IMG/VR virus record: IMGVR_UViG_3300017706_002741
Coordinates: 1-34,275 of that record
Direction: 5' to 3' (one strand)
Length of the DNA: 34,275 nucleotides
Source of the DNA: a virus
The notes under the pieces are model-generated. The model did not search any database and had not been told where the DNA came from. It worked only from the letters and a program-made list of their open reading frames with translations. Shown in pieces: positions 1,517-34,151 of the stretch (its first letter is position 1; every line of letters starts with the position of its first letter). Both the position numbers and the translations under genes were made by a program.

Positions 1517-1836
1517 TTTTTCTCCTTTTGTATTTTATCATTAAAAAATAAGTCACTATTTATTGACTTGTCACAGATGTATAGATCAAAATGAGGCTTT
1601 TCACCGACAGAAAGTTTATGATATTTACAACCCCACTCTAAAAGCTGTTTTTTTGTTACTTCGTACCAGTCTATTCCTGAGACTGACCCTCTGGCAGTCC
1701 AGTAAGTTATTTCATCGCCTTTTTCATACAGATCATTAATTTTTTTAATTCTGCTTAAAATAGGCAAAGCTAGATTGTAGTCTCTTTCTGACTTGTAATC
1801 GCAAATAGTCTCATCAATATCAACAAATATTTTCAT
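1513..1836 (-). CDS. Small HAD-family phosphatase-like protein
   Basis: This 107-residue protein has all four HAD motifs in miniature. The nucleophile motif VDIDETIC (Asp6, Asp8) comes first, then the Thr motif YWTARG near 45-50, a Lys in EKPHFD near 79-84, and an acidic motif LYICDKS near 85-91. There is no room for a large cap domain. Such capless HADs occur in capsule and LPS gene clusters as sugar-phosphate phosphatases, which fits its place one base after the NeuB-like gene; an 8- or 9-phosphate of a nonulosonate could be a substrate, but this is inference. An AGAGG ribosome site precedes the ATG. The stop overlaps the metK start. Confidence 0.8.
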   Translation of the reverse strand: MKIFVDIDETICDYKSERDYNLALPILSRIKKINDLYEKGDEITYWTARGSVSGIDWYEVTKKQLLEWGCKYHKLSVGEKPHFDLYICDKSINSDLFFNDKIQKEKK

Positions 1837-1837
1837 A

Positions 1838-5313: not shown

Positions 5314-5328
5314 CTATCTATTCCTATT

Positions 5329-8625: not shown

Positions 8626-8695
8626 TACAGACTCCCTTGTATTATAATAATTCTCATTTAATTTTATTTCTCCGACAAATTAATAGATAATCATA

Positions 8696-9601: not shown

Positions 9602-9618
9602 TTTTACCTCCAATAAGA

Positions 9619-10626: not shown

Positions 10627-10630
10627 TTTA

Positions 10631-11731
10631 TTATCCTGGGAAAGCATCTAAAGCGTTAATTACTTTTTTAATATTTTCGATTCCAACGCTTGGATATACT
10701 GGAATTGCTAATACACTTTTGCAAGCACTTTCACAAACTGGTATATCTAAATTTTTATATTTATCTCCAAAGAGCGTTTGTCGAGGAATAGAATAGGGAT
10801 AAAAAACAGAAGATTCTATATTGTTTTGCAACAAATACTTTTTTAGTTTATCTCTATTACTTGACCTAATAACATACTGGTGATAAACATGTTTTGCTAA
10901 TTTTTTACGAAAAGGTTTTTCTACGTGCTTTGATTTTATATTTTTATTATAAAACTCTGCATTTTCTATTCTTCTATTAGTGAAAGTATCAAGATGTCTT
11001 ATTTTAATACTTAACACAGCTGCTTGAATTGCATCAATTCTAAAATTACCGCCAAGATAAATTGAATCATATTTGTTTTTTAAATCGATACCGTGTTGTC
11101 TTAATAGTAGCATTTTTTTGTAAAGTTTTTCAGAGTTTGTTGTGACAATACCTGCATCTCCGAATGCTCCTAAATTTTTTGTTGGAAAAAAACTAAAACA
11201 TCCAGCATCGCCAAAGCTACCTACTTTTATGCCGTTCCACTCAGCGCCGTGTGCCTGTGCACAATCTTCTATTATTTTTAAATTATGTTCTCTAGCAATT
11301 CTAGTTATTTCTGTCATATTTGCACTATGGCCATATATATGAACAGGCAAGATACATTTAGTATTCTTTGTGATCTTGTCTTCAATTAAATTTTCATCTA
11401 TACAAAAAGTATCTTTGTTTATGTCTACAAAAATAGGTGTCGCGCCTACTCTTAATATTGCCTCTGTTGTTGCAAAAAAAGAAAAAGGTGTTGTAATTAC
11501 CTCATCACCAGGTCCGATATCTAAAGCTAACAAAGCCAAGATAAGTGCATCTGTACCTGAACTGCAGCCTGTTGCATATTTTGTATTACAAAAATTTGAG
11601 AATGTTTTTTCAAAACTTAATACTTCTGCACCGTTTATAAAAATCTGTGAAGAACAAACGTCTTTTATCTTTTCAATAACCTCTTTTTCATACAATCCAT
11701 ATTCTTTTTTTAAATCTATAATGTTGATCAT
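10631..11731 (-). CDS. DegT/DnrJ/EryC1-family aminotransferase (WbpE/WlbC-like)
   Basis: A 366-residue PLP enzyme. INIIDLKKEYG at the start, SSGTDALILALLALDIGPGD, the Asp of IIEDCAQAHGAEW, and the Schiff-base Lys in FFPTKNLGAFGDAG are all typical. The PTKNLGAFGDAG form is that of WbpE-type aminotransferases acting on 3-keto-UDP-GlcNAc uronates. Four bases separate it from the matching WbpB-like oxidoreductase, so the two probably act in sequence to give a 3-amino sugar. The start follows the methyltransferase stop by five bases; an AAAGG box is close to it. It differs from the other DegT gene at 3360-4571, so the two are not recent duplicates. Confidence 0.9.
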   Translation of the reverse strand: MINIIDLKKEYGLYEKEVIEKIKDVCSSQIFINGAEVLSFEKTFSNFCNTKYATGCSSGTDALILALLALDIGPGDEVITTPFSFFATTEAILRVGATPIFVDINKDTFCIDENLIEDKITKNTKCILPVHIYGHSANMTEITRIAREHNLKIIEDCAQAHGAEWNGIKVGSFGDAGCFSFFPTKNLGAFGDAGIVTTNSEKLYKKMLLLRQHGIDLKNKYDSIYLGGNFRIDAIQAAVLSIKIRHLDTFTNRRIENAEFYNKNIKSKHVEKPFRKKLAKHVYHQYVIRSSNRDKLKKYLLQNNIESSVFYPYSIPRQTLFGDKYKNLDIPVCESACKSVLAIPVYPSVGIENIKKVINALDAFPG

Positions 11732-11736
11732 GACCT

Positions 11737-12420
11737 TTAAATTGCTCCTTGAACTACTAAAACTGAATTTGGTTTACCAGATGCTGTCATTCCCATATTA
11801 AGTGTAATACTTTTACCAAGAGAAGCGATAAATTGTAATTCATTATAGCTGCCAAATCGCTCATTAAAATCATCAAACACCCATATGCAATTCTTTGATT
11901 GTACTCTTGCTAGCCTAATTAAATCTTTTAGAACTGCACCGCTTCTATGATCTCCATCAACCCAAATTAGATCTAGATTTATTGCTTTTTTTGTTATAAA
12001 TTCTGCTAGCTCTTTGCTTGTCCCTAAGATAAACTCTGTTTGTGTGTCATATTTTTCAACAAGAGACTTCTCTCTAACATCTCTAATATCACAAGAATAA
12101 GACATAGACTTACTATTTGGAATTTTGCTTATAACATCTGCCATTATAAAATGTTGATATCCTTCTGCTGTTCCAATTTCACAAAAATCTTTACAATTAA
12201 AAAACTCATATATCTCTTTTATGAGTCTACCTCGATCAATCAAAGTATTAAATGCTAACTTTTTTGTGTTTTCATCTAAGTTAAATTCTTTTGCTTTTTT
12301 TTCTTGTGAAGGGAGGTAAGATTTCTCCCATATTTCTTTGTGATCATTATTTATGAATTCTCCATCTCTGTTAACGAAGTTGTCATTTAAATATGCAATA
12401 AAATCATTTATATCTTTCAT
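11737..12420 (-). CDS. Class I SAM-dependent methyltransferase (Methyltransf_24-like)
   Basis: A 227-residue protein. DFCEIGTAEGYQHFIMADVI is motif I of a class I methyltransferase (E-x-G-x-x-x-G). It is followed by YSCDIRDV, LDLIWVDGDHRSGAVLKDL and CIWVFDDFNERFG. The WVDGDH form is common in O-methyltransferases and cephalosporin-hydroxylase-like proteins in surface-glycan clusters. The likely job is methylation of a sugar in the glycan, using AdoMet that metK in the same gene chain could supply. The gene starts in an ATGA overlap with the upstream glycosyltransferase, behind AAGGGG. The acceptor cannot be deduced. Confidence 0.75.
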   Translation of the reverse strand: MKDINDFIAYLNDNFVNRDGEFINNDHKEIWEKSYLPSQEKKAKEFNLDENTKKLAFNTLIDRGRLIKEIYEFFNCKDFCEIGTAEGYQHFIMADVISKIPNSKSMSYSCDIRDVREKSLVEKYDTQTEFILGTSKELAEFITKKAINLDLIWVDGDHRSGAVLKDLIRLARVQSKNCIWVFDDFNERFGSYNELQFIASLGKSITLNMGMTASGKPNSVLVVQGAI

Positions 12421-13373
12421 AAAATCCCCTTAAATATATCATAGTATGAATTAACACACTTTACAAAACGAGAAACTTTTTCACCGGTTTCTTCGTCTCT
12501 AAAATCACTATTAATTGTTATTTCTTTTGTTTTACTGAAATCCATAGGCGGTGGCTTGTAAAGAGCACACGGTTTTAAATCCCACTCATCCTCCAAAATC
12601 ATAGTTCCTTTACTGACAATTTCATTAGTGCCACCTGTCGATGAACATATAATTTTACATCCTGCTTCTTGGGCATCAATAACAACGTTAGGACAATGAT
12701 CTAGGTAAGCAAGATGAACAAGTGTAGAAGATCGATGATATAGGCATATTAATTGTTCGTAATTTAGCTCTCCTAGGTAGCATATTCTGTTGCTCATATT
12801 AAGATAAGTTTTTGCTTCATCCATGCCTAAGCTGCCAGCGATTGCAAATATTGCATCGTTAGGAGCGTGATCCAAAAAATAAAGAATATTTTGCAAAAGT
12901 CTTTTGTGTGGTCTCCAAGAAGCTGCAGAACACCATACTTCTTTTTCTTTATCCCAAGGCCAATTTAATTTATTAAAAGTATCTAAAATCAAAGGATGAT
13001 GTATAACTTTAGGATCTGCTGAATTATGTATTACATGACCGTTTTTATGAGGGCCAAACCAAGATTCAGTTAACTTCTTATTGAAGTTTGACTGAAATAC
13101 AACAGCGTCTGCATTATCATAAGCAAACTTTATTGGCGCATTCTGTTGATTGTAATCCTGCGTAGAATTAAAATATATACCATCTAACCTAAGAACCATA
13201 GGTTTAACCTTATGTGACTGCTGTTGTATTACACAGAATTCAACGTCAGCTTCACTATTATTATTTGCGATTGATATCTTCTTTTCACTTAATAGTCTAC
13301 TTAACAAGGTTCTAGTAAACTTGTTAGGACCGGTATTAGACTGCGGGTTGAAATTATGTGTAAACACTCTCAT
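12417..13373 (-). CDS. Glycosyltransferase family 4-like (GT-B fold)
   Basis: A 318-residue GT-B enzyme. The N-terminus reads THNFNPQSNTGPNKF, a typical acceptor-side glycine loop. VVFQSNFNKKL and VIHNSADP mark the interdomain region. SAASWRPHKRLL, YLGELNYEQL and the donor motif CPNVVIDAQEAGCKIICSS (E-x-x-x-G region with NVVIDAQEAG) complete the fold. It would transfer a sugar from an NDP donor to a lipid, protein or sugar acceptor. It is coupled by ATGA overlaps both to the cupin upstream and to the methyltransferase downstream. The donor is unknown. Confidence 0.82.
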   Translation of the reverse strand: MRVFTHNFNPQSNTGPNKFTRTLLSRLLSEKKISIANNNSEADVEFCVIQQQSHKVKPMVLRLDGIYFNSTQDYNQQNAPIKFAYDNADAVVFQSNFNKKLTESWFGPHKNGHVIHNSADPKVIHHPLILDTFNKLNWPWDKEKEVWCSAASWRPHKRLLQNILYFLDHAPNDAIFAIAGSLGMDEAKTYLNMSNRICYLGELNYEQLICLYHRSSTLVHLAYLDHCPNVVIDAQEAGCKIICSSTGGTNEIVSKGTMILEDEWDLKPCALYKPPPMDFSKTKEITINSDFRDEETGEKVSRFVKCVNSYYDIFKGIL

Positions 13374-13711
13374 CTTTTATAATCATCCTTCAATCTTATA
13401 ACATCGGCTAATTCAGGTGTACTAACTTCAATTAGCTTTGTAATTATATTACCTTTTGGAGCACCAAACCTATGTATTTGACCAGGTTTTACGTGATAAA
13501 CTGCACCTTCATTTAAAGTAATTTTGCTTTCTTCATTCTCAGAGAGCCAAATGCATAACTTTCCTGCCAACACATAAATTGTCTCTTCTTTTTTTTCATG
13601 ATACTGCAGGCTTAATCTATGCCCAGGTAATATTGTTAATATCTTACCTAGATACTTGTTGGTTTCTGCCCATATTTCTTCATAACCCCATGGTTTTTCT
13701 ATTTTTCTCAC
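13370..13711 (-). CDS. Cupin, mannose-6-phosphate isomerase type II-like domain
   Basis: A 113-residue stand-alone cupin that matches the C-terminal half of ManC/AlgA bifunctional enzymes. The protein starts EKPWGYEEIW. The first cupin motif is LPGHRLSLQYHEKKEETIYV (His38 and Glu43 as metal ligands), and VKPGQIHRFGAP contains His80. In this family the domain interconverts fructose-6-phosphate and mannose-6-phosphate, the entry to GDP-mannose, the substrate of the epimerase at 5994-6998. The mannose-1-phosphate guanylyltransferase half is absent here and would have to come from elsewhere in the phage or the host. The start is a GTG overlapping the upstream stop (GTGA). It could instead act on another NDP-sugar. 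Confidence 0.82.
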   Translation of the reverse strand: MRKIEKPWGYEEIWAETNKYLGKILTILPGHRLSLQYHEKKEETIYVLAGKLCIWLSENEESKITLNEGAVYHVKPGQIHRFGAPKGNIITKLIEVSTPELADVIRLKDDYKR

Positions 13712-14424
13712 TGGACATACCCTCTTGACCTTACTAATTTAATTGTACTCATTTGATTTTTTTCTTTAAGCGGTCTACTTTTTAAAGAGTTTGAGTTTAT
13801 TCTGTAGAGATAACATATCTCATTTAAAAATTTTCTTTCTTTTGCGAGAAACAAAATAGGTAAATACAAAGCTTGATCATATCCTCTCTCAAACCAGTTT
13901 CCATCTAGGTCTTTAAAATTTTCAGAGTTTATCTTTTTAAATGTCTCTAGCTTAAATGTCTTAAGATGAGAACTTACCCAAGGGTACTGATATGGATTGA
14001 TCTTTTTTGGTAAATCTCTAGAAATATTCATTCCGTTTATGTCCCATGAATGACATGTCCATAAAGCTTCTAAATTAGTGTCATCTTCGTACTCTTTTAA
14101 AATTAAATCAACTGTGTTTTCATTACATAACGCATCGTCGCCATCAAGTATTGCTATTAAATCGCAGTTTAATTCAGCATAATCAGCAATTAAAAAATCA
14201 TATATTCCTTTAAGCGCAAACTTTTTAACAGAGTGATTATAAAGCTTAACCCTGCTGTCTTTTTCTATGATCTTTTTTGCAATTTTTAAAGTATCATCTG
14301 TGGACATGTCATTTAAGATTACCCATTTCCACTTTTTGTTATTTTGCTCAACTAAAGATTCGTAACACTCTAAAAGCTGATGTGATGAATTAAAAGTTGG
14401 TGATAAAAATGTGACATGTTTCAT
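13708..14424 (-). CDS. Glycosyltransferase family 2
   Basis: A 238-residue GT-A enzyme. VTFLSPTFNSSHQLLECYES begins the nucleotide-binding half. WVILNDMSTDDTL is the usual (N/D)D-x-S-x-D-x-T block, LIAILDGDDALCN is the DxD metal site, and WFERGYDQALYLPIL is the ED-type catalytic region. It adds one sugar using an NDP donor; donor and acceptor are unknown. It starts two bases after the stop of the small helical gene, with GGAAGGA upstream, and its stop overlaps the cupin start. Confidence 0.9.
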   Translation of the reverse strand: MKHVTFLSPTFNSSHQLLECYESLVEQNNKKWKWVILNDMSTDDTLKIAKKIIEKDSRVKLYNHSVKKFALKGIYDFLIADYAELNCDLIAILDGDDALCNENTVDLILKEYEDDTNLEALWTCHSWDINGMNISRDLPKKINPYQYPWVSSHLKTFKLETFKKINSENFKDLDGNWFERGYDQALYLPILFLAKERKFLNEICYLYRINSNSLKSRPLKEKNQMSTIKLVRSRGYVQ

Positions 14425-22463: not shown

Positions 22464-23699
22464 TTAAGTAATTATCTTTTCAATATTATACAGCACTTCT
22501 CTTAAACTGTTAACTTTTTGATCAGCTATTTTTAAAAAACCAGGAGGGACAAAATAATTTTTTTTAAACGTCGTGTTTAAAATGCACATTTTCTTAGATA
22601 AGTTTGATATCACTTTTAAGAAGTAGTCTAACTCTCTATTAAAATTTCTATTGATAATGTATTCGGGTAAATAGACATTTGCTGACTTTACATTAAAATT
22701 TTTCAACCTATTTGTTATAGGTTCAATATTGACGTCTCCTTTGCCTAGTGATTCGCTTAGACGCCTTTTTAGAAAAGTTTTGTGAGCAATTATTTTATCT
22801 GTGTTGGCCACGCTCTTTATAAGTATTTTATTTTTTAAAAATACTATTTTCTCCCCTACAGGTAATTCTTTTCTAATTTCTTGAGATATTGTTTGTCCTA
22901 ATTTGCTAGAAACAACTCCTGAATCATGAATAATTGCCAAGTCATTTAAAATATTTAGAGTTGTCTCATCAAAATTAATTGACACTGGAAGAACTTGTGT
23001 TCTTCCCTCTTTGTTGTTTTTTAAAATGTTATATTTTACTTCATCTGACATTCCATGGCAAAATATAACATATGGACGCTTATTTTTGTTTGCATTAAAC
23101 ATTAAATGGTGTATTTCACCAACAGTTTCTAAATAACCGTCTATGATTATAAAATGATAATTTTTTATTTCTAAACCACTATTATTAACATAAAACTCAA
23201 AATCATAAGAAAACTTAAAAAGAAAATCATCAACAATTTCAACTAATATCTCTTTGCCCTTATATCTCTCAATATTGATGTTTCTCTCTAAGCTGAAATT
23301 TTCAAAAATCCACCTGGCTAGATTCTTTATGTTTTTATCTTGAATTGACTTAATTAGTTTTTTCTCATGAGATTTGTTAAAAAGCTCTTTCTTTTTAACC
23401 TTTCTTTTTTTTCCAGCATAAAAGCTTTCTAAAAAATAATCTCCTAAGTGTGGGTACAAATATTCGCATTCTTTAAATTCTTTAAGGATTAGATTTTTAA
23501 GGGATGCGTCAATATTGTCGCCAGGTAAAAAATTTAAATAGTTAAGACTACTACTTTTCATAATAGACTTGTCAGAATAAAGACATGACTCATTAGACAG
23601 TTTTGAATATAGTATTTTTTGACTGTCTAAAAAGTCGTGAATTATTTCGTTAGAATAAATCTTAGTCTTAAGAGTCACGCCACAGGTTGTTGCTTGCAT
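22464..23699 (-). CDS. Divergent GroEL-like protein (apical and intermediate domains)
   Basis: A 411-residue protein; GroEL has about 545. Residues 150-290 follow the GroEL apical domain in order: ILVEIVDDFLFKFSYDFEFY (GroEL: VVEGMQFDRGYLSPYF), LEIKNYHFIIIDGYL (ELESPFILLADKKI), KRPYVIFCHGMSDEV (GKPLLIIAEDVEGEA), NILNDLAIIHDSGVVSSKLG (MLQDIATLTGGTVISEEIG). Residues 310-365 resemble the return path through the intermediate domain. The equatorial ATPase half is much reduced: the GDGTTT motif is absent, with perhaps HLGDYFLES (84-91) as a remnant. It probably does not hydrolyse ATP as GroEL does. It overlaps prkA by 32 bases and follows GAGGAG, so the two are co-expressed; it could be a clamp or adaptor for substrate binding. 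Confidence 0.6.
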   Translation of the reverse strand: MQATTCGVTLKTKIYSNEIIHDFLDSQKILYSKLSNESCLYSDKSIMKSSSLNYLNFLPGDNIDASLKNLILKEFKECEYLYPHLGDYFLESFYAGKKRKVKKKELFNKSHEKKLIKSIQDKNIKNLARWIFENFSLERNINIERYKGKEILVEIVDDFLFKFSYDFEFYVNNSGLEIKNYHFIIIDGYLETVGEIHHLMFNANKNKRPYVIFCHGMSDEVKYNILKNNKEGRTQVLPVSINFDETTLNILNDLAIIHDSGVVSSKLGQTISQEIRKELPVGEKIVFLKNKILIKSVANTDKIIAHKTFLKRRLSESLGKGDVNIEPITNRLKNFNVKSANVYLPEYIINRNFNRELDYFLKVISNLSKKMCILNTTFKKNYFVPPGFLKIADQKVNSLREVLYNIEKIIT

Positions 23700-25611
23700 A
23701 AGTTAAAATCTCCTCAGCAGAAGATTCGTTGTACCCATAGTCTTCTATGAGTGTTTGAATCATGCCTGTATACTTTTTCTTTTGGTCGTCGTCTCTAGAT
23801 TTTGATCTTGTGACAATTCTTGCTATGTCTTTAACAGAAGAAATTAAATATTGTTCAATTGCTTCCTTGAGTGGCCCATAAGATTTATAGTCAACAACTT
23901 CGCCTTTTCTTAATCGAGCAAACATAAAAGCTGTTACATCATTTCTAAATCCGTCTCTAGATGATCCCACTACACCTATCATTTCCTCAATTGTCCTCAT
24001 GAATTTCTCATCAGGATCTCTTTCTTCTCTAGTAATCTTATTTTTAGTTCTTGTTTTTGTTGTATAGCATTCAGCATTATCAAGATAAGTGTCAAATAAG
24101 CTTTGTGCTTGCTCTTCATATGCTGTAATAAATGCTTTTGCAATTTCTGTTTCTAGAATCTTAAGATACTCTTCTCTAATTAGCTTCTGAACAATTTCCA
24201 AATAACGAGTTTTAGCATCTTCATCAATAATTTGTTCTTTAACTTGCTTAATAAGGCTATCCATAACATTAATAGGCGTGATCATACCGCTATCAGAATC
24301 TGATAATGCTGCGTCTAAAGATTTCATAATAAATCTTGTTGAAATACCTGTCATGCCCTCATGTTTTGCTTCGTCTTTTAAATCTCTGATATCAACTTTT
24401 TTCACACGACCCTTTTCAATAATTGCTTCTCCATTATAAATTTTCATTTTAGTAAGAAGGTCACATTTGTTTGATTGCTGTAATCTGCTCATTACTGAGA
24501 ACATTGATGCAACTTTCAATGTATGCGGAGCAATATGAGCGCCTCTAAAATCAGACTTATTTAAAATCTTTTCATAGATTTTTTGTTCTTGATGTAATTC
24601 CAACACGTAAGGAACTTCAATCTTAAGAACCCTGTCTAAAATAGCCTCGTTAGTGTGTTCAGATTTAAATCTGTTCCACTCTGACTCATTACAATGAGAT
24701 AATATAACGCCATCAAAATAAAGCATATCGTTCTTACCTGGCGAAGGTACACGCTTTTCTTGCGTTGCTGTTAACATTGTATGTAAGAATTCAATTTCAT
24801 TCTTAAACACTTCTACAAATTCAACTATCCCACGGTTACCAACGTTAAACGCACCGTTAAGAGAAAGGACTCTAGGATCATCTTCAGGATAAAGATCTAG
24901 TTTACTAATGTCTTCAGTTCCAATTAACACAGAAGTATCTTGAGAATTTGCGTCCATCGGTGGTACAACTGCTATACCTCTTCTACCTCTCTGAGAAAAC
25001 CCAGTTTCTTTGACAGGAAACTTTTCATATTCACCATTAAATTCGTTCATTAGTCTGTGACGACATACTGGGCAAAGATCGCCCTCAATATGCACACCTA
25101 AAATTTCTTCAAATTTAGATCTGAGGCTTCTAGGTAACAGGTGAAGGGGTTCTTCTCTAATAGGGCAACCTTCTAAGTAGTAGTAGTTATCAGCATTACT
25201 TTCCAAGGCACGCTTAACTGATTCAACCAATGCTGATTTTCCTGCACCCACCGGTCCCATCAAGAGAAGAACTTGTCTGCTTTCTTCACCTTTAAAAGCA
25301 GCAGACTTTAAAAACCGCATCAACTTATTTGTTACAGTCTCCATCCCAAAAAACTCTTTTTCAAAGTATTCATATTTTCTTATTTTGTCACCGTTAAAAA
25401 TATCCCGATAATCTTCAGAATCTACATCTAATGTCTCGAAACCTTGGTTAGAAATTGATTCGTAAAGCCTCTTGTGCGCTAATTTAACGCTCTCAGGTTT
25501 TTTCTCTACTAAGCTCAAATAATCTAAGAAAGTTCCTTCAAACTTTTCTTTTTTCTTCGCTTTTCTCTGATTGGCAATCAGATCAAGGAAATCATTTTTT
25601 TTGCGTGCCAT
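23668..25611 (-). CDS. prkA: PrkA-family serine protein kinase (YeaG-like)
   Basis: A 647-residue protein, the size of E. coli YeaG (644). The AAA-type domain has Walker A GPVGAGKSAL at 119-128; CPVC near 180 and long helical segments follow. The second half (after about 400) corresponds to the PrkA kinase domain, with ATPF-like blocks such as GMTGISTRFIMKSLDAAL and DPDEKFMRTIEEMI. PrkA phosphorylates serine residues and takes part in starvation and stationary-phase responses in bacteria. ATG 25611 is chosen over GTG 25620, because GAGGTG lies six bases ahead of it and only two ahead of the GTG. It is in an operon with SpoVR and YeaH, as their bacterial relatives are co-regulated. Confidence 0.95.
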   Translation of the reverse strand: MARKKNDFLDLIANQRKAKKKEKFEGTFLDYLSLVEKKPESVKLAHKRLYESISNQGFETLDVDSEDYRDIFNGDKIRKYEYFEKEFFGMETVTNKLMRFLKSAAFKGEESRQVLLLMGPVGAGKSALVESVKRALESNADNYYYLEGCPIREEPLHLLPRSLRSKFEEILGVHIEGDLCPVCRHRLMNEFNGEYEKFPVKETGFSQRGRRGIAVVPPMDANSQDTSVLIGTEDISKLDLYPEDDPRVLSLNGAFNVGNRGIVEFVEVFKNEIEFLHTMLTATQEKRVPSPGKNDMLYFDGVILSHCNESEWNRFKSEHTNEAILDRVLKIEVPYVLELHQEQKIYEKILNKSDFRGAHIAPHTLKVASMFSVMSRLQQSNKCDLLTKMKIYNGEAIIEKGRVKKVDIRDLKDEAKHEGMTGISTRFIMKSLDAALSDSDSGMITPINVMDSLIKQVKEQIIDEDAKTRYLEIVQKLIREEYLKILETEIAKAFITAYEEQAQSLFDTYLDNAECYTTKTRTKNKITREERDPDEKFMRTIEEMIGVVGSSRDGFRNDVTAFMFARLRKGEVVDYKSYGPLKEAIEQYLISSVKDIARIVTRSKSRDDDQKKKYTGMIQTLIEDYGYNESSAEEILTYASNNLWRDS

Positions 25612-25674
25612 GTATATCACCTCTCCTTATAGTAAATTTATACAATGTTATCTCTTGACTGTTAATAATTAATT

Positions 25675-27021
25675 TTATATTTCCCAAAGCTCATCCTCAA
25701 TGACTGTATATAGTACGACCTCATCCTTCCAAAGATTTTTTACGTGACTAATCACATTGTCAGCGTAGTCTAAGTCTAGATCTCTACCGTCGTGCTCATG
25801 TTTTAATACTAGTTTTCCGCTTTTACCAACTCTATCAACATATATGTGAGGGATCATGTTGATACCTGTATTTTTAATTAAATCGTCCCGCACAGTTTTC
25901 CAGTCATCATGATCAGAAACTTCACTTATCGATGCACTTCCGTCTTTGTGGTTTGTATAAGAGAATAAATTTAACTCTCTAAAATCTTCTTCATCTAGAA
26001 ATAATCTAATAGCAGAAACGTCATCATGTATTTCTCGCACTTCAAAACATTTTTCTATACCAAATTCGCGCTCAATTTTTTGAAAAATATAAAAGCCTAC
26101 GTGATAAGGATTGACGCCTCCTAAGTGAGGCCTTACAACAGCATTGTGCATCTTAAGAAAAGGTATATGTAAGTTGTCTGAAAGATTTAGCTCATGCAAT
26201 ATTTTATAGTGCCAAAAAGAAGCCCATCCCTCATTTAGGATTTTTGTTTGAATTTGTGGCATAAAATACCAGCTTTCTTGTTTGACAATTTCTAAAATAT
26301 CTAATTGCCAATCAGAAAACTTATGAGAAGAATACTCTGTTAAAAAAGAAAGAATATCATGATCAGGCTCAAGCAAAGTATGTTCATCTTCAAGATCATC
26401 AAAATCTAGGACAATACCTTTCTCTTTAAAAGCATTAAATTTTAAAATATGCTTCTCTTTAATCTGCTCTTTCGTTTGTCTTTTAGTGTTGTATCTATTT
26501 GTTTGGTATTTTATTGCATGAAGATTGTCTAGAAAGTCTTCAACTTTATCAGGACCAATTAGTGGATCTTCAATGTACTTCTGAATTCTTTTTCTTGCGT
26601 TTCGCATCCTAGTAACAATATTATCAGGGTCTGTATGTTTAAACATTCTGTTGTTTTTAAAAAAGTCACTGTGTCCTACACAATGAGCCATAATTAAAAC
26701 TTGCAAATAAAAGTCATTTTGGAGCATCAAGTATGCTATTGACGGATTAGAATTTATAATAAGCTCATAAGGTAGTCCACTTTGACCCATATTATACATT
26801 GTGTATGTTCTCTCAAAAGACTTGCCAAAAGACCAATGATTATAATGGCTAGGCATTCCATGATATGACATGTGCCCGATCATTTCAAAATAATCGCAAG
26901 TTTCATAAGTTATTTCGTGCCAATCCAATCCGTGACTCTTAGCGATGGCACAGATTTTTTCATCCCAAACCTTTAGGTCATCTAATGTATAAGAAGAATA
27001 GTCTTTAGACGTTAATGTCAT
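25675..27021 (-). CDS. SpoVR-family protein (YcgB-like)
   Basis: A 448-residue protein (YcgB is about 510). Blocks that identify the family are WHEITYETCDYFEMIGHMSY, HWSFGKSFERTY, YELIINSNPSIAYLM and AHCVGHSDFFKNN, then LNEGWASFWHYKILH, NPYHVGFYIFQKIE and YVDRVGKSGKLVLKHEHDGR. The His/Glu/Asp-rich motifs (ICAIAKSH, HCVGH, NEGWASFWHY) look like a metalloprotein core. SpoVR is co-regulated with PrkA and YeaH in proteobacteria; its biochemical role is unsettled. ATG 27021 follows GGAGG by five bases and is preferred; a start at 27063 would lie deep in the YeaH gene. The overlap with yeaH is then 17 bases. Confidence 0.93.
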   Translation of the reverse strand: MTLTSKDYSSYTLDDLKVWDEKICAIAKSHGLDWHEITYETCDYFEMIGHMSYHGMPSHYNHWSFGKSFERTYTMYNMGQSGLPYELIINSNPSIAYLMLQNDFYLQVLIMAHCVGHSDFFKNNRMFKHTDPDNIVTRMRNARKRIQKYIEDPLIGPDKVEDFLDNLHAIKYQTNRYNTKRQTKEQIKEKHILKFNAFKEKGIVLDFDDLEDEHTLLEPDHDILSFLTEYSSHKFSDWQLDILEIVKQESWYFMPQIQTKILNEGWASFWHYKILHELNLSDNLHIPFLKMHNAVVRPHLGGVNPYHVGFYIFQKIEREFGIEKCFEVREIHDDVSAIRLFLDEEDFRELNLFSYTNHKDGSASISEVSDHDDWKTVRDDLIKNTGINMIPHIYVDRVGKSGKLVLKHEHDGRDLDLDYADNVISHVKNLWKDEVVLYTVIEDELWEI

Positions 27022-28180
27022 ATTTACCTCCAAACAATTTGGCAAACTCTGGCCAAATATCATTTTTGTCTCTAATTTTGCATATCTTAAAAGAGTCTGT
27101 CTCTAAGACGCTAAAAATCTCTGCCATTTCTTGACCCCAGAGAGTCTCTTGTTCAGGTTTGATCTGAATATAACCAGATAGCTGACTAATGCTTGAGAGC
27201 TTTTTCATTTTATTTAGAGCTTTTTCGTTGTCTTCTGACCAATTGTCTCCGTCTGAGCAATGGAATGTGTATATATTCCAGCTAGAAGGTGAAAATCTTT
27301 CATCAATGATTTCTTCAGCCAATGAAAGACCAGAAGAAATAAACGTTCCTCCACTTGATGCTTTTTTAAAGAAATCATCTTCATTAACTTCATTTGCGAC
27401 AGTTGTGTGTGATATGAAAACAATTTCTACGTTTTGATATTTATATCTTAGAAACTGGTACAGCAAAAAAAAGAATGATCTTGCTAAAAACTTCTTCCTC
27501 TTACCCATTGAACCAGAAACGTCCATTATCATGAATATAACTGCATTTGTAATTGGTTTGCGTTTAACTTCAATGTGTTTGTATTTTAAGTCATCTTCGT
27601 GAAACGGAAATCTTTCCTCACTTTCTGGATCATACGTACCATTTTTAATTGCTTGATTTTTTCTTCGAATTTTATTTTTAAGCGTTTCTTTTTTAGAGAG
27701 TCTTGCTCTAATCCCTTTAGTTCTGTATCCTTTTCTTTTAATTTTTTCTGTAAAAATATTAGATGTACTCTTTTTAGCAAGTTCAGGTAAATTTAGATCG
27801 TCAAATAAGTAAGATGCTAACTCATCTAGAGATATTTCAACATCATAATATTCTTCACCTTTATCTTTACCTGCCTTATTAGGCTTGCCACCTTGACCTT
27901 TTTGATTTGGTTTTTTTACTACCTGGCCTTTTTCAATGTCTTGGCCTTGAGCAGAACCAACTCCTTTTGAATTGTTACCTTGATCAAAAATAAACTGGTA
28001 CTCTTTTATGCCTCTGACAGGTATGCGTATCTTTTTCTTGCCATCTTGACCAATAATGCTTTCTTCTGCGACAATATCGTGAATACCTTCTTTGATAGCT
28101 TTCTCAATCTTCTTCTTGTGCCTTCTACGATCAGAAGCTGATCTATCTGCTATTGTTTCGTGCTTTTTAAAAATTGACAT
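27005..28180 (-). CDS. YeaH-family (DUF444) von Willebrand-A-domain protein
   Basis: A 391-residue protein. The N-terminus is rich in Lys and Arg (FKKHETIADRSASDRRRHKK). A low-complexity Gly/Lys/Gln segment follows at 60-110, then a basic stretch, and a VWA-like domain from about 210. Its MIDAS is MIMDVSGSMGKRKK (Asp220, Ser222, Ser224), and a later Asp lies in FHCSDGDNWSED. In E. coli yeaH follows yeaG and is controlled with it, and the protein works with PrkA in stress responses. It is the first gene of this minus-strand operon, with an AAGAGG ribosome site and TATAAT (28222-28227) upstream. Confidence 0.93.
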   Translation of the reverse strand: MSIFKKHETIADRSASDRRRHKKKIEKAIKEGIHDIVAEESIIGQDGKKKIRIPVRGIKEYQFIFDQGNNSKGVGSAQGQDIEKGQVVKKPNQKGQGGKPNKAGKDKGEEYYDVEISLDELASYLFDDLNLPELAKKSTSNIFTEKIKRKGYRTKGIRARLSKKETLKNKIRRKNQAIKNGTYDPESEERFPFHEDDLKYKHIEVKRKPITNAVIFMIMDVSGSMGKRKKFLARSFFFLLYQFLRYKYQNVEIVFISHTTVANEVNEDDFFKKASSGGTFISSGLSLAEEIIDERFSPSSWNIYTFHCSDGDNWSEDNEKALNKMKKLSSISQLSGYIQIKPEQETLWGQEMAEIFSVLETDSFKICKIRDKNDIWPEFAKLFGGKYDINV

Positions 28181-28287: not shown

Positions 28288-29046
28288 ATGAAAGATTTAG
28301 AAAAATTTATAATTAAAGAGCTATTAGCTGAGGCTAAAAAGAAAGAATTGTCAAAGAAGCAAAAAGAAAAAATAGATGTGGCAAAACCTTTTGGCACAAT
28401 TGACGGTGATGATTTTGAAAAACTTAGACAAAGCGAAGATTCAGAAAGTTTAGACGAGAAAAAGAAAAAAAAGCGAAAGACTAGAACAAAACCTTCAGAT
28501 GTTAAACTTACACCCGGTTATGCGGCAAATAGATCTGCAGGTGACCAATCAAAGCTACAAAAACTAATTGCGAGATTTAAAAATGCTAAAACGCAAAAAC
28601 AAAAAAAGAAAGCAATGGATGCTAGAGTTGCTTTTGAAAAAGGTCAATACAAATCAAACAAACAAAGTGTTCACAATTATGTAGCAGAGTCATCTGAATT
28701 TAATGAATTCTTAAAAGAAATAATTGACAATCTTGACGAAAAGAAGAGAAAAAAACGAAAGAAGAAAAAGAAGAAGAAGTCATCAGGTAGAAAGATATCG
28801 AGTAAAGTTGACAAGTCATTAAAAAAGAAAGCTAAAGATAGAAATGCTCCTGTTAGTGCACTTAAAGCAATCTACAGAAAAGGTATGGGCGCGTTTTACT
28901 CATCAGGGTCTAGGTCAGGTCAAAATCCTCACTCTTGGTCAATGGGAAGAGTAAACAGTGTGCTTAGAGGCGGAAAAGCAAGAAGTGTTGATGCTGCTCA
29001 GTGGAAGCAAATTCAAAAGTTTAGACAGAGAAAGAAAAAGAAATGA
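28288..29046 (+). CDS. Very basic Lys-rich protein with CTS-like leader and C-terminal phage domain
   Basis: A 252-residue protein, about one third Lys or Arg. The leader MKDLEKFIIKELLAEA ends in (L/I)xE sites (IKE, LAE). A second copy of the theme, EFNEFLKEIIDNLDEKKRKK, occurs at 138-157, and SLDEKKKKKRK at 54-64 echoes LDEKKRKKRKK at 149-159. The C-terminal segment 187-235 (APVSALKAIYRKGMGAFYSS ... WSMGRVNSVLRGGKARSVD) resembles DUF5824-like domains of marine phages. The poly-Lys parts suggest DNA contact; the leader suggests capsid targeting as in T4 internal proteins. It ends in an ATGA overlap with the kinase-like gene. Function unknown; a packaged DNA-binding protein is my inference. 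Confidence 0.75.
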   Translation: MKDLEKFIIKELLAEAKKKELSKKQKEKIDVAKPFGTIDGDDFEKLRQSEDSESLDEKKKKKRKTRTKPSDVKLTPGYAANRSAGDQSKLQKLIARFKNAKTQKQKKKAMDARVAFEKGQYKSNKQSVHNYVAESSEFNEFLKEIIDNLDEKKRKKRKKKKKKKSSGRKISSKVDKSLKKKAKDRNAPVSALKAIYRKGMGAFYSSGSRSGQNPHSWSMGRVNSVLRGGKARSVDAAQWKQIQKFRQRKKKK

Positions 29047-30008
29047 TAACAAGAAACCGTCTAAATGCACTTATAAAAGAGTCTGTTGAAAATAGCTTAG
29101 TAGGATATATCGCAGATGACCCTACTATTAAATCATCTTTAACCAATATGATGTCTAAAAAAGATTTTTTTAGAAATATGTGTAATGAAAGTCCGCTATC
29201 TAATAAAGAGACGATAAGTAACTGGATTAATCAAAACTTAAAGCCTAACAGTATGACTGAAGATGATGTAAGAGCAGGAACAGGTGCTTCGAGATTTACT
29301 TTTCATCTAGGAGACAATGATGAGTTTGTGATAAAAATTGCACATGACTTCGAGCTAGGTGTTTTTACAAACAAGAAAGAAATACAGGAGTTTATAAATT
29401 ATGGCAACTTGTTAAGTATATTTCCAAGAATGTACCTAGCAGATAAAAATAGTTTTGAGTGGCTAGTATTAGAAAGAGTTGACGTACCGTCTAGCAGGAA
29501 CGCTGAAGCTGAACTTGGAGAGGTAATTAAAAACGACTATCCAGAAGTTTTTTCTAATTTTCCACTATGGTTAAGCCAGAACTTACCAGAGGGACTTAAT
29601 ACAAGTGATCATATTAAAATATTATTAGAAGATGTGCCTACCAATTCAGTATTTATGCATGTGCCAGATTTTGGAGGTGGAACTCCAGCAGAATACTTCT
29701 ATTTTTTAATGTTTTTATACTGTTTTCCTTTTGACGGTGTGTCAACAGACATACTTGTCGACGGATTAATAGGGTCTGACCCTTTCATGATGTTTGCACA
29801 AGCAGGTTTCAAGCAAGAATACGAGGTTGTAATAAAGAACATTATAGAAAAAATGTCAGAAAACGTTTCTTTGCGCCAGTTAGCAAATGCAGTATACACC
29901 TTGGGTGTCGACGTCCTAGACTTAGGTGTAGGAAACTTAGGGATTAGTAGAATTGATGGATCTTTAAAAATAATAGACATTAGTATATTTGAAGAACCTA
30001 ATTCTTAG
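29043..30008 (+). CDS. Degenerate protein-kinase-like protein with CTS-like leader
   Basis: A 321-residue protein. After the leader MITRNRLNALIKESVE comes a segment resembling the kinase N-lobe: GTGASRFTFHLG at 79-90 (glycine loop) and EFVIKIAHDFE (Lys98 as ATP-binding Lys). Near the end VLDLGVGNLGISRIDGSLKI (Asn298) and IIDISIFE (Asp312) parallel the catalytic loop Asn and the DFG Asp. The HRD motif is not evident (DVLDLGVGN), so activity is uncertain and it may be a pseudokinase or an atypical enzyme. Similar kinase-fold proteins occur in T4-like marine phages. It is coupled to the Lys-rich gene (ATGA overlap) and overlaps the next gene tail to tail by 11 bases. Confidence 0.6.
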   Translation: MITRNRLNALIKESVENSLVGYIADDPTIKSSLTNMMSKKDFFRNMCNESPLSNKETISNWINQNLKPNSMTEDDVRAGTGASRFTFHLGDNDEFVIKIAHDFELGVFTNKKEIQEFINYGNLLSIFPRMYLADKNSFEWLVLERVDVPSSRNAEAELGEVIKNDYPEVFSNFPLWLSQNLPEGLNTSDHIKILLEDVPTNSVFMHVPDFGGGTPAEYFYFLMFLYCFPFDGVSTDILVDGLIGSDPFMMFAQAGFKQEYEVVIKNIIEKMSENVSLRQLANAVYTLGVDVLDLGVGNLGISRIDGSLKIIDISIFEEPNS

Positions 30009-30717
30009 ATTGGCCTACAGATAATTTAATATCGTATATGTTGTTTAACATATTATACAGTCTATCAATATCACCATCAGCTCTCAGTGTTTTGTATGCT
30101 ATATTTTCCTCAGACATCTCACCAGACTTTTCAAGGCCTGACTGTCTCATCTTTCTGATCTTTTGTATTAGCTGATCGATATCATCTGGATCTTTTTTGT
30201 ATTTAGATTTTTCTATAGCAGTATCAATTTTCTTCTTTATAGACAGAACTTTTTTCTGGACATCATTTTCGCTGAACTTATCAACAAACTTTTTAGGTTT
30301 GACGACCCACTCATCATTCTTTATTGAATACACGCCTGACGATTTGTGTGGTTCGTCATCATCTTGCGGATAAAGTTCAACTTCTACAGACTCAACTTTA
30401 ATATCGTGCTTGTCGTTCCAGTACTGCCTTTTAGCTTTTAAAAACTCTTCAACAAGGTCGATATCTCTATTGATGCTTTGCTTGTCAATAATAATATGCA
30501 AATCAATGTCAGAATATCGTGTGTAATTGTAATTTGCAAAAGAGCCTGTAAATGTAATATCGATGACGTCAATCTCAATCCCTAAGTAATCAACAAACTC
30601 ATTTGCAATAACAAGTAATCTTTCTCTCACAGACGGTCTTAGTTCTTCATCGACCCAAAATTTCTTTGCTAAGTTTTGGTGAGGAAGGTGATTTTTTATT
30701 TTGCCAGTAATTGACAT
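29998..30717 (-). CDS. Nucleotidyltransferase (polymerase-beta-like fold)
   Basis: A 239-residue protein. ITFTGSFANYNYTRYSDIDL at 54-73 is the GSxxN...SDxDL signature with metal-binding Asp70 and Asp72. A third acidic residue lies in VESVEVELYPQD (near 110), and the C-terminal third is helical. The fold covers nucleotidyltransferases of many kinds, including antitoxin/MNT-type and drug-modifying enzymes; this version, GSFANYNYTRYSD, recurs in marine phages. The substrate is unknown. It starts inside the end of the UvsE gene (22-base overlap), with CGGAG as ribosome site. Confidence 0.75.
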   Translation of the reverse strand: MSITGKIKNHLPHQNLAKKFWVDEELRPSVRERLLVIANEFVDYLGIEIDVIDITFTGSFANYNYTRYSDIDLHIIIDKQSINRDIDLVEEFLKAKRQYWNDKHDIKVESVEVELYPQDDDEPHKSSGVYSIKNDEWVVKPKKFVDKFSENDVQKKVLSIKKKIDTAIEKSKYKKDPDDIDQLIQKIRKMRQSGLEKSGEMSEENIAYKTLRADGDIDRLYNMLNNIYDIKLSVGQSKN

Positions 30718-31628
30718 TGTTTATCTCCGTATAATTCTCTGTACTTAAGTATCGCCTTTTCTTTGGCTTTTGCCTCAAATACTACATCTATGTCTAAACC
30801 GTAGTCTTTAACTTCGTTAAAAATGTAGTCACTGTGTGCTTGAGGTTTTACTTTTAGTCCTTCATTAAGTGCCTTGGACTCTGAATAATGACAGCAAGGG
30901 CGAACATCACCCCAAGTGCTTGCTGCTAACTTGAGTGCTTCTTCTTCTGTCTGTTCACCTGTACAAAACTTATGATGATGGTAATCAAAAACTGTAGGCA
31001 CGCCTAATCTCTCATATACTTGATGTAAGTCTTTAGTACTGTACATACTGGCTTTGTCGTCATTTTCAAGAGTAATGCGGGTTTTAACGCTCTCTGGAAG
31101 AAGTTCATAGTTTTTGCACCACCGATCAATAGCAGACTTCTTATCACCGTAAGTAGCTCCGATGTGTATATTGATTTTTGACCAACGATTTCTTGGCATG
31201 CCCATTGTATCCATTATTTTGCCGTGTATAGACAAATCTGTGACTGCATTTTTGACCACATTTTCTTTTGGACTAGTCAAGATATTGAAAGGGCCCGGGT
31301 GAAATGATAATCTTTGTCCAACATGTCTTGCATAAGCACCTGCTTTCTTTAGATTAATCTCAATTTGCTTCCAGTCAGGCAAATCTTCAAGCTGATATTC
31401 AGACCCCCACGGGAATAAGCAGGATGACATTCTGAATACTTGAATGCCATTCTTATAGTTCCACATAAGAATAGGTAAAAGATTTCTTGTGTTATGTTCT
31501 GCCAATTCTGAGGCATACTTAATTCCTTTTGCTTTAAAAGTTCTTTTAATCATTCCTCTGTTTGTTGTAACTTTCTTCTCTTTTTGAAGTGTCATATTAA
31601 TGCATGCGTAACCAAGTCTAATTGTCAT
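30696..31628 (-). CDS. uvsE: UV damage endonuclease UvsE/UVDE
   Basis: A 310-residue TIM-barrel endonuclease that nicks DNA 5' of UV photoproducts, independent of UvrABC. It opens RLGYACIN. Metal ligands are visible in order: His in SFHPGPF, His in NIHIGATYGDK, Glu in TLENDDKA, Asp and His in VFDYHHHKF, His in CCHYSES and QAHSDY, and Glu in VVFEAKAKEKA. All usual blocks are present and the length is normal for bacterial forms. It would repair phage DNA damaged in sunlit water. GAGG lies 11 bases before the ATG. It is divergent from the protease operon. Confidence 0.93.
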   Translation of the reverse strand: MTIRLGYACINMTLQKEKKVTTNRGMIKRTFKAKGIKYASELAEHNTRNLLPILMWNYKNGIQVFRMSSCLFPWGSEYQLEDLPDWKQIEINLKKAGAYARHVGQRLSFHPGPFNILTSPKENVVKNAVTDLSIHGKIMDTMGMPRNRWSKINIHIGATYGDKKSAIDRWCKNYELLPESVKTRITLENDDKASMYSTKDLHQVYERLGVPTVFDYHHHKFCTGEQTEEEALKLAASTWGDVRPCCHYSESKALNEGLKVKPQAHSDYIFNEVKDYGLDIDVVFEAKAKEKAILKYRELYGDKQCQLLAK

Positions 31629-31714
31629 AATTTATTAACCTCTTTTTATTTTTATTATAACATAAAAATTTTTTATTTGCATTTTTGCATACTTATTTTA
31701 TATAGGAGTTTTTA
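31629..31714. promoter_or_regulatory. Divergent promoter region between uvsE and the protease genes
   Basis: This 86-base, almost pure A/T gap lies between outward-facing genes. On the minus strand a TATAAT (31654-31659) stands about 25 bases from the uvsE start; at the -35 place ATGCAA is a poor match. On the plus strand TTGCAT and several TAT-rich boxes precede TAGGAG (31703-31708), the ribosome site of the protease gene. Both assignments are tentative. Confidence 0.35.
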
Positions 31715-32455
31715 ATGATTATAAGAAAACTTAGAAATTTTTCGCTAAAAAGATTTATTCTATTTGGCTCTTTAGTTCCAATGTTGTCAATTCATGCTGA
31801 CATAAACCCTGTTGTAACGTCACAAGAAAACTCAGAGTTAAGTTTTGAGAGAGAGCACAAGGATCAATTAGAGAATTTTGTTTTTCTTATAAAGTATGTT
31901 ACATTACCTGATGAATCAGCAATTCATTCAACTGCCTCAGGAATAATTATTTCTTCTACAAAAAGCCATGCGTTTATATTGACAGCTAACCATTTTTGTC
32001 AATCAGAAGACGCAATTCTCTTTCCAACAGAGATAGGTGTCTATATTGGTGAAAACTTAAGGCTAGGTCAAATAATACATGCTGATAAAGAAAATGATTT
32101 GTGTTTAATTGGTGGTATAAAATACAAAGATGAAAAATTTAAAAATATTAAATTAGCAAAAAAGATGCCGCCTATAGGTGAATTTGTCTTTAATGTCGCT
32201 GCTCCAAATAGCATGGGTTCTCCTAACACAAGATTGCTATTTGATGGTCACTTTGGCGGTTGCGAAGAGATGTGTGTTTACACAATACCAGCAACATTTG
32301 GTTCGTCAGGATCAGCAGTATTTAACAAAAAAGGCGAACTAATATCAATACTAGTAATGGCGACACCAGATTTTGAAAATGTTGGAATAGGGCCAGATAT
32401 ATATAACATAAGAAAATTTATAAATGAAATTGAAAAAATGATGGATATTAAATGA
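31715..32455 (+). CDS. Secreted trypsin-like serine protease
   Basis: A 246-residue protein. Residues 1-28 look like a signal peptide (basic MIIRKLRNFSLKR, hydrophobic FILFGSLVPMLSI, then HADI). The catalytic triad of the chymotrypsin fold is complete: His93 in AFILTANHFC, Asp128 in ADKENDLCLIG, and Ser198 in TFGSSGSAVFNKKGEL. Three or four cysteines may form disulfides in the periplasm. The likely site is the periplasm or outside; the target is unknown (host surface, virion maturation or lysis). It is coupled to a metalloprotease gene by an ATGA overlap, so two proteases are made together. TAGGAG is the ribosome site. Confidence 0.85.
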   Translation: MIIRKLRNFSLKRFILFGSLVPMLSIHADINPVVTSQENSELSFEREHKDQLENFVFLIKYVTLPDESAIHSTASGIIISSTKSHAFILTANHFCQSEDAILFPTEIGVYIGENLRLGQIIHADKENDLCLIGGIKYKDEKFKNIKLAKKMPPIGEFVFNVAAPNSMGSPNTRLLFDGHFGGCEEMCVYTIPATFGSSGSAVFNKKGELISILVMATPDFENVGIGPDIYNIRKFINEIEKMMDIK

Positions 32456-32871
32456 AACTGTTTATTGATAAGGGCTTAGGGTATAAACCTGAGAATATTA
32501 AACTAGCTGGAGAATTCATTTTGTTCTGTGCCGATAATTTACCTATAGAAGGTGAATTTGAAGTTCACCTTGTTAATTCTCGAGAACACCACGGCATACA
32601 AACAACAGCTTTTTACGACCCAAATAACCAGTGCTCAAAAATATACGCAAAAAATAGAGCGCTTGCTGATGTTTTACGATCAGTTGCTCATGAATTGACT
32701 CACATGATGCAAGACCAAATAGGGCTATTAAGTAGTGGGCCAATTAGAGATGCTGGCGGATTTCACGAAGATCAGGCAAATGCAAAAGCAGGTGAGTTGA
32801 TTAAACTATTTGCAAAATCAAAGCCTGGTAGAAAAGCAATATACGAAAATAAAAAGTTAAAAAGTTTTTAA
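32452..32871 (+). CDS. Small HExxH zinc metalloprotease-like protein
   Basis: A 139-residue protein with the zincin motif SVAHELTHMMQDQ (His80, Glu81, His84). A probable third ligand lies in FHEDQANAKAGELIKLF (Glu106 or Glu115). There is no signal peptide. The rest is a compact fold with EFEVHLVNSREHHG strands. Similar short HExxH proteins occur in T4-like marine phages and are thought to be peptidases, with no substrate known. Its stop codon and that of the convergent gene share the bases TTAA. Confidence 0.75.
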   Translation: MKLFIDKGLGYKPENIKLAGEFILFCADNLPIEGEFEVHLVNSREHHGIQTTAFYDPNNQCSKIYAKNRALADVLRSVAHELTHMMQDQIGLLSSGPIRDAGGFHEDQANAKAGELIKLFAKSKPGRKAIYENKKLKSF

Positions 32872-34151
32872 CCTTTCTTTATAAACGCTGTTGGTCCTGC
32901 CATAAAACCTGACTTACCACCTGACTTATACTTATAAGCATTCTTGAGGGCATTTTCTTTACTCATGCCTTTTCTTACGTAGTATCGCCCTACAACAGCA
33001 CCAGTCCTATCAGCTCCATGAGTGCAGTGTATTAGTGTATTACCTTTGTCCAATTGTTTAACAATGTCATCAAAGCTAAAGTTTTGCATATTTAAACTAC
33101 CACCACCATCGCTAGCAGGAGCATACATCACATTCATACCCGCAGCTTTTGCATTATTGCTAGCACTCTTACCGCTGTTATCTGCATTAAGAGTTATCAC
33201 TGTATCTATACCGTAATCTTTTTGAAGAGACTTAAAAAATTCAGGAGAAGCGTTAACATGCTTGGGTTTCATACCAGATCGATAATTATTTTTACCGCCT
33301 TTAATTAATTTATGAAAATTAATTTCTCTAGCAGTGAATTTACCTAGCTGACCAGCCCATGACGAACTAGCTTTTGAACCAGCAGGCAATCCTTTTTTAT
33401 ACTTAGCGACGTGTGCCCTTATAAAATTTTCATATTTAGAATTAGGCGCCCCATAATATTTTTTTGTAGTATATGCATAATCACCTTTATTTACTGCATC
33501 TTTAAACTCCTGACCATAAAGATTAATCCAGGTAACTAAAGAATTTTCACAGTATTGTAGTGTGTCATTTTCCCAAGCATTACTCCACGCGGTAGGATCG
33601 TTATTGTATTTAGGCAAAGTAAATGCACCTAACACTTGATATAGACCCCATGCGCCACCTGAAATTGCTGCCCAGGGGTTAATTTTGTATGCTTTTTTAA
33701 ACGCGTTTTGGGCGTCTTGACCGTAATAAGACTTAGTGGATCCAACTGGAAAACCTGCATTTTTTAATGCAGTTTTTTGTTCGTCAGTAACAGCTTTACC
33801 AGGGACTCCTGCGTCTTTTGCATACTTAGAGTTGACCATAATATGTAGATTCCATGCCATCGCCTTAGGATTGTGATTAGATTCTTTTGCCTCCTCTGCG
33901 TATATCCATGCAGGATCAATACCTAGTTTTCTACCAAGTCTCACAGCTCTATCACCAACAGAAGCTTTAACTGATGTTGACTTGTCAAATGTTCCGCTCC
34001 ATTCTTCTCCGCCTACGTCATCATCCTTTTTATTCTTTCTAGTAAGGTTTGCTGACTTTCTAAACATTTTTTGAAGCGTGCCCTCGTGAGTCATTGACTC
34101 AACAAGGACGTCTCTTACGATTGCTCTAATTTCTAACTCTGATAATCTCAT
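32868..34151 (-). CDS. Lytic-transglycosylase-like plus dual-specificity phosphatase fusion with CTS-like leader
   Basis: A 427-residue protein in three parts. The leader MRLSELEIRAIVRDVLVESM (1-20) is amphipathic and contains LVE. Residues 60-260 resemble an SLT/lysozyme-like domain: IYAEEAKESNHNPKAM (Glu90 as possible catalytic acid) and ISGGAWGLYQVLG at 163-175. Residues 295-427 are a cysteine phosphatase: VITLNADN, YAPASDGGG (Asp348 as general acid) and IHCTHGADRTGAVVG (Cys376, Arg382, HCxxGxxRTG). The first part would cut peptidoglycan; the second would remove phosphate from Tyr/Ser/Thr or another ester. I know of no standard family with this pairing. The start overlaps the upstream gene (TAATG). 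Confidence 0.78.
   Translation of the reverse strand: MRLSELEIRAIVRDVLVESMTHEGTLQKMFRKSANLTRKNKKDDDVGGEEWSGTFDKSTSVKASVGDRAVRLGRKLGIDPAWIYAEEAKESNHNPKAMAWNLHIMVNSKYAKDAGVPGKAVTDEQKTALKNAGFPVGSTKSYYGQDAQNAFKKAYKINPWAAISGGAWGLYQVLGAFTLPKYNNDPTAWSNAWENDTLQYCENSLVTWINLYGQEFKDAVNKGDYAYTTKKYYGAPNSKYENFIRAHVAKYKKGLPAGSKASSSWAGQLGKFTAREINFHKLIKGGKNNYRSGMKPKHVNASPEFFKSLQKDYGIDTVITLNADNSGKSASNNAKAAGMNVMYAPASDGGGSLNMQNFSFDDIVKQLDKGNTLIHCTHGADRTGAVVGRYYVRKGMSKENALKNAYKYKSGGKSGFMAGPTAFIKKG

Follow-up and report, generated by a model that had tools for sequence, protein, structure and literature searches.

A shared N-terminal leader, probably capsid-targeting, on otherwise unrelated proteins of jumbo marine T4-type phages

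The window analysed here, the 34,275-base IMG/VR record IMGVR_UViG_3300017706_002741 taken at its full length, represents part of the genome of a jumbo marine T4-type phage. Three of its genes, encoding a Lys-rich protein, a kinase-like protein and a protein with muramidase-like and dual-specificity phosphatase regions (the muramidase-phosphatase), begin with a similar short segment, here termed the leader. This shared N-terminus is probably a capsid-targeting leader, by which the proteins would be packaged in the head, cut, ejected and brought to act on the host. With less confidence, we favour a wider reading for jumbo marine T4-type phages, in which one standard N-terminal tag may serve as a general loading signal and tens of different proteins, reaching about 19% of called genes at most, would be packed; the majority are orphans, and the few recognisable ones include effector-like domains.

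The leader in the window

A profile trained on relatives, with the window and its nearest homologues left out, picks exactly these three window genes (12.7 to 18.8 bits; Table 1), the fourth-best window gene reaching only 2.6 bits. The similarity that the first-pass annotation of this DNA had noted between the three proteins is thereby confirmed. Their N-termini are MKDLEKFIIKELLAEA (28288, plus strand), MITRNRLNALIKESVE (29043, plus strand) and MRLSELEIRAIVRDVLVE (34151, minus strand); the four genes lying between them are without a leader. Each leader also holds, as had been proposed, a site of the (L/I)xE type, namely hydrophobic-x-E followed by A or S: LAE↓A in the Lys-rich protein, IKE↓S in the kinase-like protein and LVE↓S in the muramidase-phosphatase (arrows mark the putative cut).

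The likeness stands out most in the kinase-like and muramidase-phosphatase genes; their homologues in other phages also bear the leader. The kinase-like homologue G002 141888 has a canonical leader, MKITRSQLKQLIWES, and the homologues in L013 and L014 begin with a short helix of another kind that ends in FLKE↓S. A 713-residue homologue of the muramidase-phosphatase (G019/G021) has a 23-bit leader, after which the linker is not conserved. The Lys-rich protein, in which the likeness is weakest, is the least secure of the three predicted leader cases. It has a second leader-like helix, at about residues 136–150, that aligns with the N-terminus of its homologues. Most homologues at the same place carry a different short amphipathic helix, which ends in hydrophobic-x-E before a run of lysines (LNE↓KKK, VSE↓KKK, ISE↓GKKK), and one DUF5824 homologue elsewhere has a canonical leader scoring 24.8 bits.

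A detachable tag in related phages

Relatives of the window were reached via PrkA, which in the window stands with SpoVR and a YeaH-like DUF444 protein (23668–28180). This bacterial stress-kinase trio is the mark of an entire group of jumbo marine phages, with 41–43 homologues of each protein in the fetched loci. The PrkA search of IMG/VR gave 36 loci, the closest 88–90% identical, including contigs of 123 to 293 kb; direct searches of IMG/VR and INPHARED with the muramidase-phosphatase and the kinase-like protein returned no relatives. By portal protein, the nearest cultured phages are Flavobacterium phage immuto (37%), Microcystis phage Mel-JY01 (43%) and Rhodothermus phage RM378 (31%).

An ungapped 18-residue profile, with hits counted above the 99.8th percentile of internal segments, finds the leader on 292 of the relatives' 3,134 gene starts, against 6.3 expected. 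Further proteins with the same leader, which the first-pass annotation had offered as a check on its proposal, were thus found by the dozen. Per-genome counts, approximate because a simple gene caller was used, are 48 of 256 called genes in G002, 48 of 341 in G018, 35 of 403 in G017 and 36 of 158 in G014; a few matches are false, the MSYSVKLEK family being one example. The leader has the consensus MKITRRQLRKIIREEL (M-K-I-T-R-R-Q-L-R-K-I-I-R-E-E-L), and some genomes also use the dialect M-K-N-L-R-Q-Y-I-R-K-I-L-L-T-E-A. Two dialects, MKNLRQYIRKILLTEA and MKITKRQLRRIIKEE, occur in G018, each confined to its own gene clusters (249–263 kb versus 9–10, 170–178 and 237 kb).

After residue 30 the bodies of these proteins are unrelated: 229 leader proteins form 187 clusters, 165 of them single, and 46 from G002 form 45. 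The leader is, like a T4-type capsid-targeting sequence, a segment common to otherwise unrelated proteins. The same domain can also occur with or without it, as in a DUF192-like and a Nudix-like protein (domain names assigned by eye). Taken together, the unrelated bodies and the optional presence of the leader indicate a detachable tag. Within genomes, 43–49% of codon pairs encoding the same leader residue are identical, against 33–42% expected from codon usage (46% against 42% in G002, with a larger excess in G018 and G014). Over the 25 bases upstream, leader genes resemble one another no more than other genes do. Synonymous codons near expectation and unconserved upstream regions point to selection on the peptide.

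The leader is viral. Back-translated into a 42-base degenerate pattern, it occurs in at least 120 viral stretches of IMG/VR, where the reversed pattern has no match. Among 84,980 prokaryote species genomes the pattern was found in nine stretches on five contigs, all metagenome-assembled. In two of the five (L288 and L283; NHDW01000006.1 and PBIO01000025.1), filed as Methylococcaceae and Halobacteriovorax metagenome-assembled genomes, the matches are clustered into dense leader arrays and each assembly contains an S77 protease; both contigs probably belong to jumbo phages and were placed in bacterial bins. Even at one mismatch, the pattern has no match in T4, immuto, Mel-JY01, RM378, Salicola phage SCTP-2 and three huge uncultured phages. 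A tblastn search of cultured phages with the 20-residue leader consensus found nothing, the query being too short to be informative.

Association with the prohead protease and head genes

The relatives, in a region that lies outside the window, have a T4-type head operon in the order terminase, portal, a protein of ~280 residues, S77 protease, small proteins, a scaffold-like protein of ~490 residues and a gp23-like capsid protein. The gp21-like (S77) protease, for which the first-pass annotation had suggested looking elsewhere in the genome, is present in all six PrkA-found relatives longer than 115 kb and in 11 of 12 pattern-found leader contigs of about 115 kb or more.

Two of the small proteins, putative core proteins, carry the leader themselves. 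Core 1 (135–185 residues) lies directly or one gene behind the S77 protease and has a start like MAKxxRxxLKxIVKECLVEILxEGL; core 2 (70–105 residues) adjoins core 1 and has a start like LTPxLLRRLVLEEK. When all head-region genes are kept out of the training set, the profile gives core 1 a score of 11–21 bits in 15 of 18 genomes and core 2 a score of 11–24 bits in all 16 (per-segment p about 1e-3, a conservative value because true leaders contaminate the null). The arrangement resembles that of T4, in which the small core proteins gp67 and gp68 adjoin gp21.

Just behind the major capsid gene, a 998-residue protein (L071:16006–19002; 811 residues in G002) bears the leader variant MLLTRRLFSKIIFEAILLEIKKED and is a candidate very large internal protein. 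The 293-kb phage G017 has two neighbouring, closely similar major capsid protein genes, at 176269 and 178261.

The candidate cleavage site

In T4, cleavage follows L/I-x-E, and propeptides of 10–19 residues target internal proteins to the core (PMC9026906). The capsid proteins of the relatives have QVLRE↓A/S or QLLRE↓S/F aligned exactly at FLTE↓A of T4 gp23, a predicted maturation site. Hydrophobic-x-E is present in 247 of 262 leaders. Outside the conserved core, hydrophobic-x-E followed by A, S or G occurs in 82 of 262, against 21.1 ± 4.4 in shuffled sequences (z 13.9), an enrichment that vanishes when D, K, R or Q takes the place of E. An L/I-x-E-type site at the end of the segment, as in T4-type capsid-targeting sequences, is thus present as a motif, from which the leaders are predicted to be cut at hydrophobic-x-E.

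Proteins that carry the leader

Occurrence of the leader on clearly cytoplasmic phage enzymes had been named in the first-pass annotation as evidence that would count against its proposal. The leader is on none of the 433 homologues of 27 proteins that represent replication, metabolism, the shell, the tail and the PrkA group. Known families are rare behind the leader, with nine Pfam families among 145 leader proteins compared with 80 among 145 genome- and size-matched controls. The tagged domains include zeta toxin, L,D-transpeptidase, HD, GNAT, a type VI secretion system effector-like domain and, weakly, ADP-ribosyltransferase; a second set of 148 leader proteins gave P-loop kinase/zeta-toxin, YkuD, HD, PAP2, GNAT, exonuclease, HAD and DUF5824 domains, with ADP-ribosyltransferase again weak.

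Proposed role and alternative explanations

The leaders of the core proteins, the protease in the relatives and the leader-free housekeeping homologues support the T4-like capsid-targeting interpretation put forward in the first-pass annotation, under which the tagged proteins would be packaged. Because the tag stands on dozens of unrelated proteins, including small ones beside the head protease, it probably sends proteins into the head for injection with the DNA. In the mechanism we propose, the leader would form an amphipathic basic helix of about 15–20 residues that attaches to the core as the prohead assembles, with small core proteins bearing the same helix produced alongside the prohead protease. 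Cleavage by the S77 (gp21-type) protease would come next, after hydrophobic-x-E in or just behind the helix, and would yield a mature protein that stays inside the head and can leave with the DNA. For the window phage, the load would include the Lys-rich DUF5824 protein, the kinase-like protein and the muramidase-like/phosphatase protein.

Several observations weigh against this account. The strict motif, hydrophobic-x-E followed by A, S, G or N, is found in 134 of 262 leaders, so about half are without it. T4 ipI, ipII, ipIII and alt score −5.8, 0.8, 0.0 and −8.7 bits on the leader profile and do not match, and 48 packaged proteins in one phage would far exceed the T4 number. The window is itself a fragment without head genes, its protease gene lying outside the 34 kb, and the S77 counts of 6 of 6 and 11 of 12 cover leader-bearing contigs only. 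Packaging, cleavage and ejection are predictions from sequence.

The leader could instead be an uncut docking helix for a target other than the head, whether a structure assembled during infection, a host target or a site on a membrane, with the core proteins sharing the docking partner. Many tagged proteins are indeed small orphans in arrays resembling early host-takeover genes, and a strict cleavage motif in only half of the leaders would suit an uncut helix. The presence of the leader on two proteins beside the prohead protease in nearly every genome, and a glutamate-specific enrichment matching the capsid-protein site, nevertheless make such docking unlikely. It is less probable still that these are virion proteins placed by the leader elsewhere, in the neck, tail tube, baseplate or outer shell: muramidase-like domains are also typical of tail lysozymes, and a leader protein of 811–998 residues is encoded right behind the capsid gene, but none of 49 sheath, tube and baseplate-wedge homologues has the leader, and those carriers whose position is known are candidates for the inner core.

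Arrays of leader genes with unrelated bodies might also be expected if the shared start were a DNA-level element, either a recombination cassette or a translation signal, to which the peptide is incidental. This explanation, which we consider very improbable, is largely refuted by the codon data, synonymous codons being near expectation and upstream sequences showing no more similarity than is seen at other genes. Chance, in which ordinary amphipathic N-terminal helices had been picked by eye, could draw on the weak Lys-rich leader (12.7 bits) and its differing homologues; for the leader as a whole it is refuted and scarcely credible, given 292 occurrences against 6.3 expected and a pattern found in at least 120 viral stretches but in none when reversed.

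Were the capsid-targeting reading correct, a simple sequence rule would name the injected proteins across an uncultured giant phage group, most of them without a known family, and a fifth of these genomes, now unannotated, would become a testable catalogue of proteins delivered as infection begins. On the wider reading, the head would deliver a large and fast-changing repertoire of injected proteins, which sequence alone would suffice to list. The leader would also be a second, unrelated-looking capsid-targeting tag besides that of T4, possibly useful for loading cargo into phage heads.

Features and gene neighbourhood

Table 1. Leader-bearing proteins of the window and their predicted leaders (arrow, putative cut).
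Feature	Position	Strand	Evidence
Lys-rich protein, 252 residues	28288..29046	+	DUF5824 at residues 151–234, PF19141, E 3.2e-7, above cut-off
Lys-rich protein leader, MKDLEKFIIKELLAE↓A	28288..28332	+	12.7 bits; predicted cut after residue 15
Kinase-like protein, 321 residues	29043..30008	+	phrog_4301, E 2.7e-6
Kinase-like protein leader, MITRNRLNALIKE↓S	29043..29081	+	18.8 bits
Muramidase-like and dual-specificity phosphatase protein, 427 residues	32868..34151	-	PF22785 Tc-R-P, E 7.8e-9
Muramidase-phosphatase leader, MRLSELEIRAIVRDVLVE↓S	34098..34151	-	15.3 bits

The earlier functional labels held in part. The kinase-like protein has no Pfam match, and its label is based solely on kinase-like conserved residues: a VIK lysine, E, DLGxGN and IID, seen in a four-sequence alignment with G002 141888 and L013/L014. 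In the protein labelled transglycosylase-phosphatase, the phosphatase is above the Pfam cut-off, with the active-site motif HCTHGADRTG, and the muramidase (PF11860 Muramidase, E 0.003) is below it. AlphaFold2 models of the kinase-like protein and the muramidase-phosphatase gave no usable fold (predicted local distance difference test scores of 34 and 46) because there are too few homologues.

Genes at 29998–32871 encode a nucleotidyltransferase, a UvdE endonuclease, a trypsin-like protease with a hydrophobic N-terminus and a metalloprotease-like protein with an HELTH motif; most of them co-occur across many relatives, and the leader is never present on them. In G002 an array of leader genes (227–236 kb) begins at the place of the muramidase-phosphatase, after the trypsin-like and metalloprotease-like genes, and the window therefore probably ends just inside such an array. 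Further upstream, a GroEL-like match (phrog_5725, 22464–23699), possibly a diverged chaperonin fragment, adjoins PrkA. A long run of sugar and surface-glycan genes (548–14424) includes a NeuB-like synthase, an epimerase, aminotransferases and glycosyltransferases, all named by eye, together with an S-adenosylmethionine synthetase gene.

Comparison with known systems

T4-like phages have been suggested to carry various proteins through targeting by short N-terminal propeptides (PMC9026906). The leader resembles the capsid-targeting sequences of T4 IPI, IPII, IPIII and Alt in being a short N-terminal segment on otherwise unrelated proteins, with hydrophobic-x-E followed by A or S (PMC9026906), and in the relatives the likeness extends to a gp21-family protease, gp20/gp22/gp23-type head genes and small core proteins beside the protease. 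Compared with the T4 sequence MKTYQEFIAEA, the leader is longer, basic (MKITRRQLRxIIREEL) and much more uniform, and it stands on tens of proteins, of up to about 1,000 residues, as against about four in T4. The T4 sequences are best regarded as a functional parallel and not as proven homologues, since the profile leaves them unmatched and convergence is then indistinguishable from deep homology. Short capsid-targeting propeptides are known from T4; no prior description of a uniform short tag on tens of proteins of one phage was found in the literature searched, which covered motif strings and marine and jumbo-phage capsid targeting.

Giant phages of the SPN3US type eject many proteins and have long propeptides (PMC5694885). 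The phages described here share with phiKZ and SPN3US a jumbo genome and many candidate inner-head proteins, and SPN3US gp53 and gp54 have an identical N-terminus, MANFVKSKLARESVE (PMC5694885). Propeptides in those phages are mostly longer than 100 residues and are served by an S80-family protease, whereas here the leader is short and the protease belongs to S77. The features of a phiKZ-like inner body were not found in the relatives, whose leaders are short and whose protease matches PF03420 (S77), although no search was aimed at an additional S80 enzyme.

Polyvalent proteins are giant multidomain effectors injected by phages. Toxin-like, peptidoglycan-active, kinase, phosphatase and weak ADP-ribosyltransferase domains among the tagged proteins recall such effectors; in place of giant multidomain chains, one common tag is set here on separate, arrayed genes.

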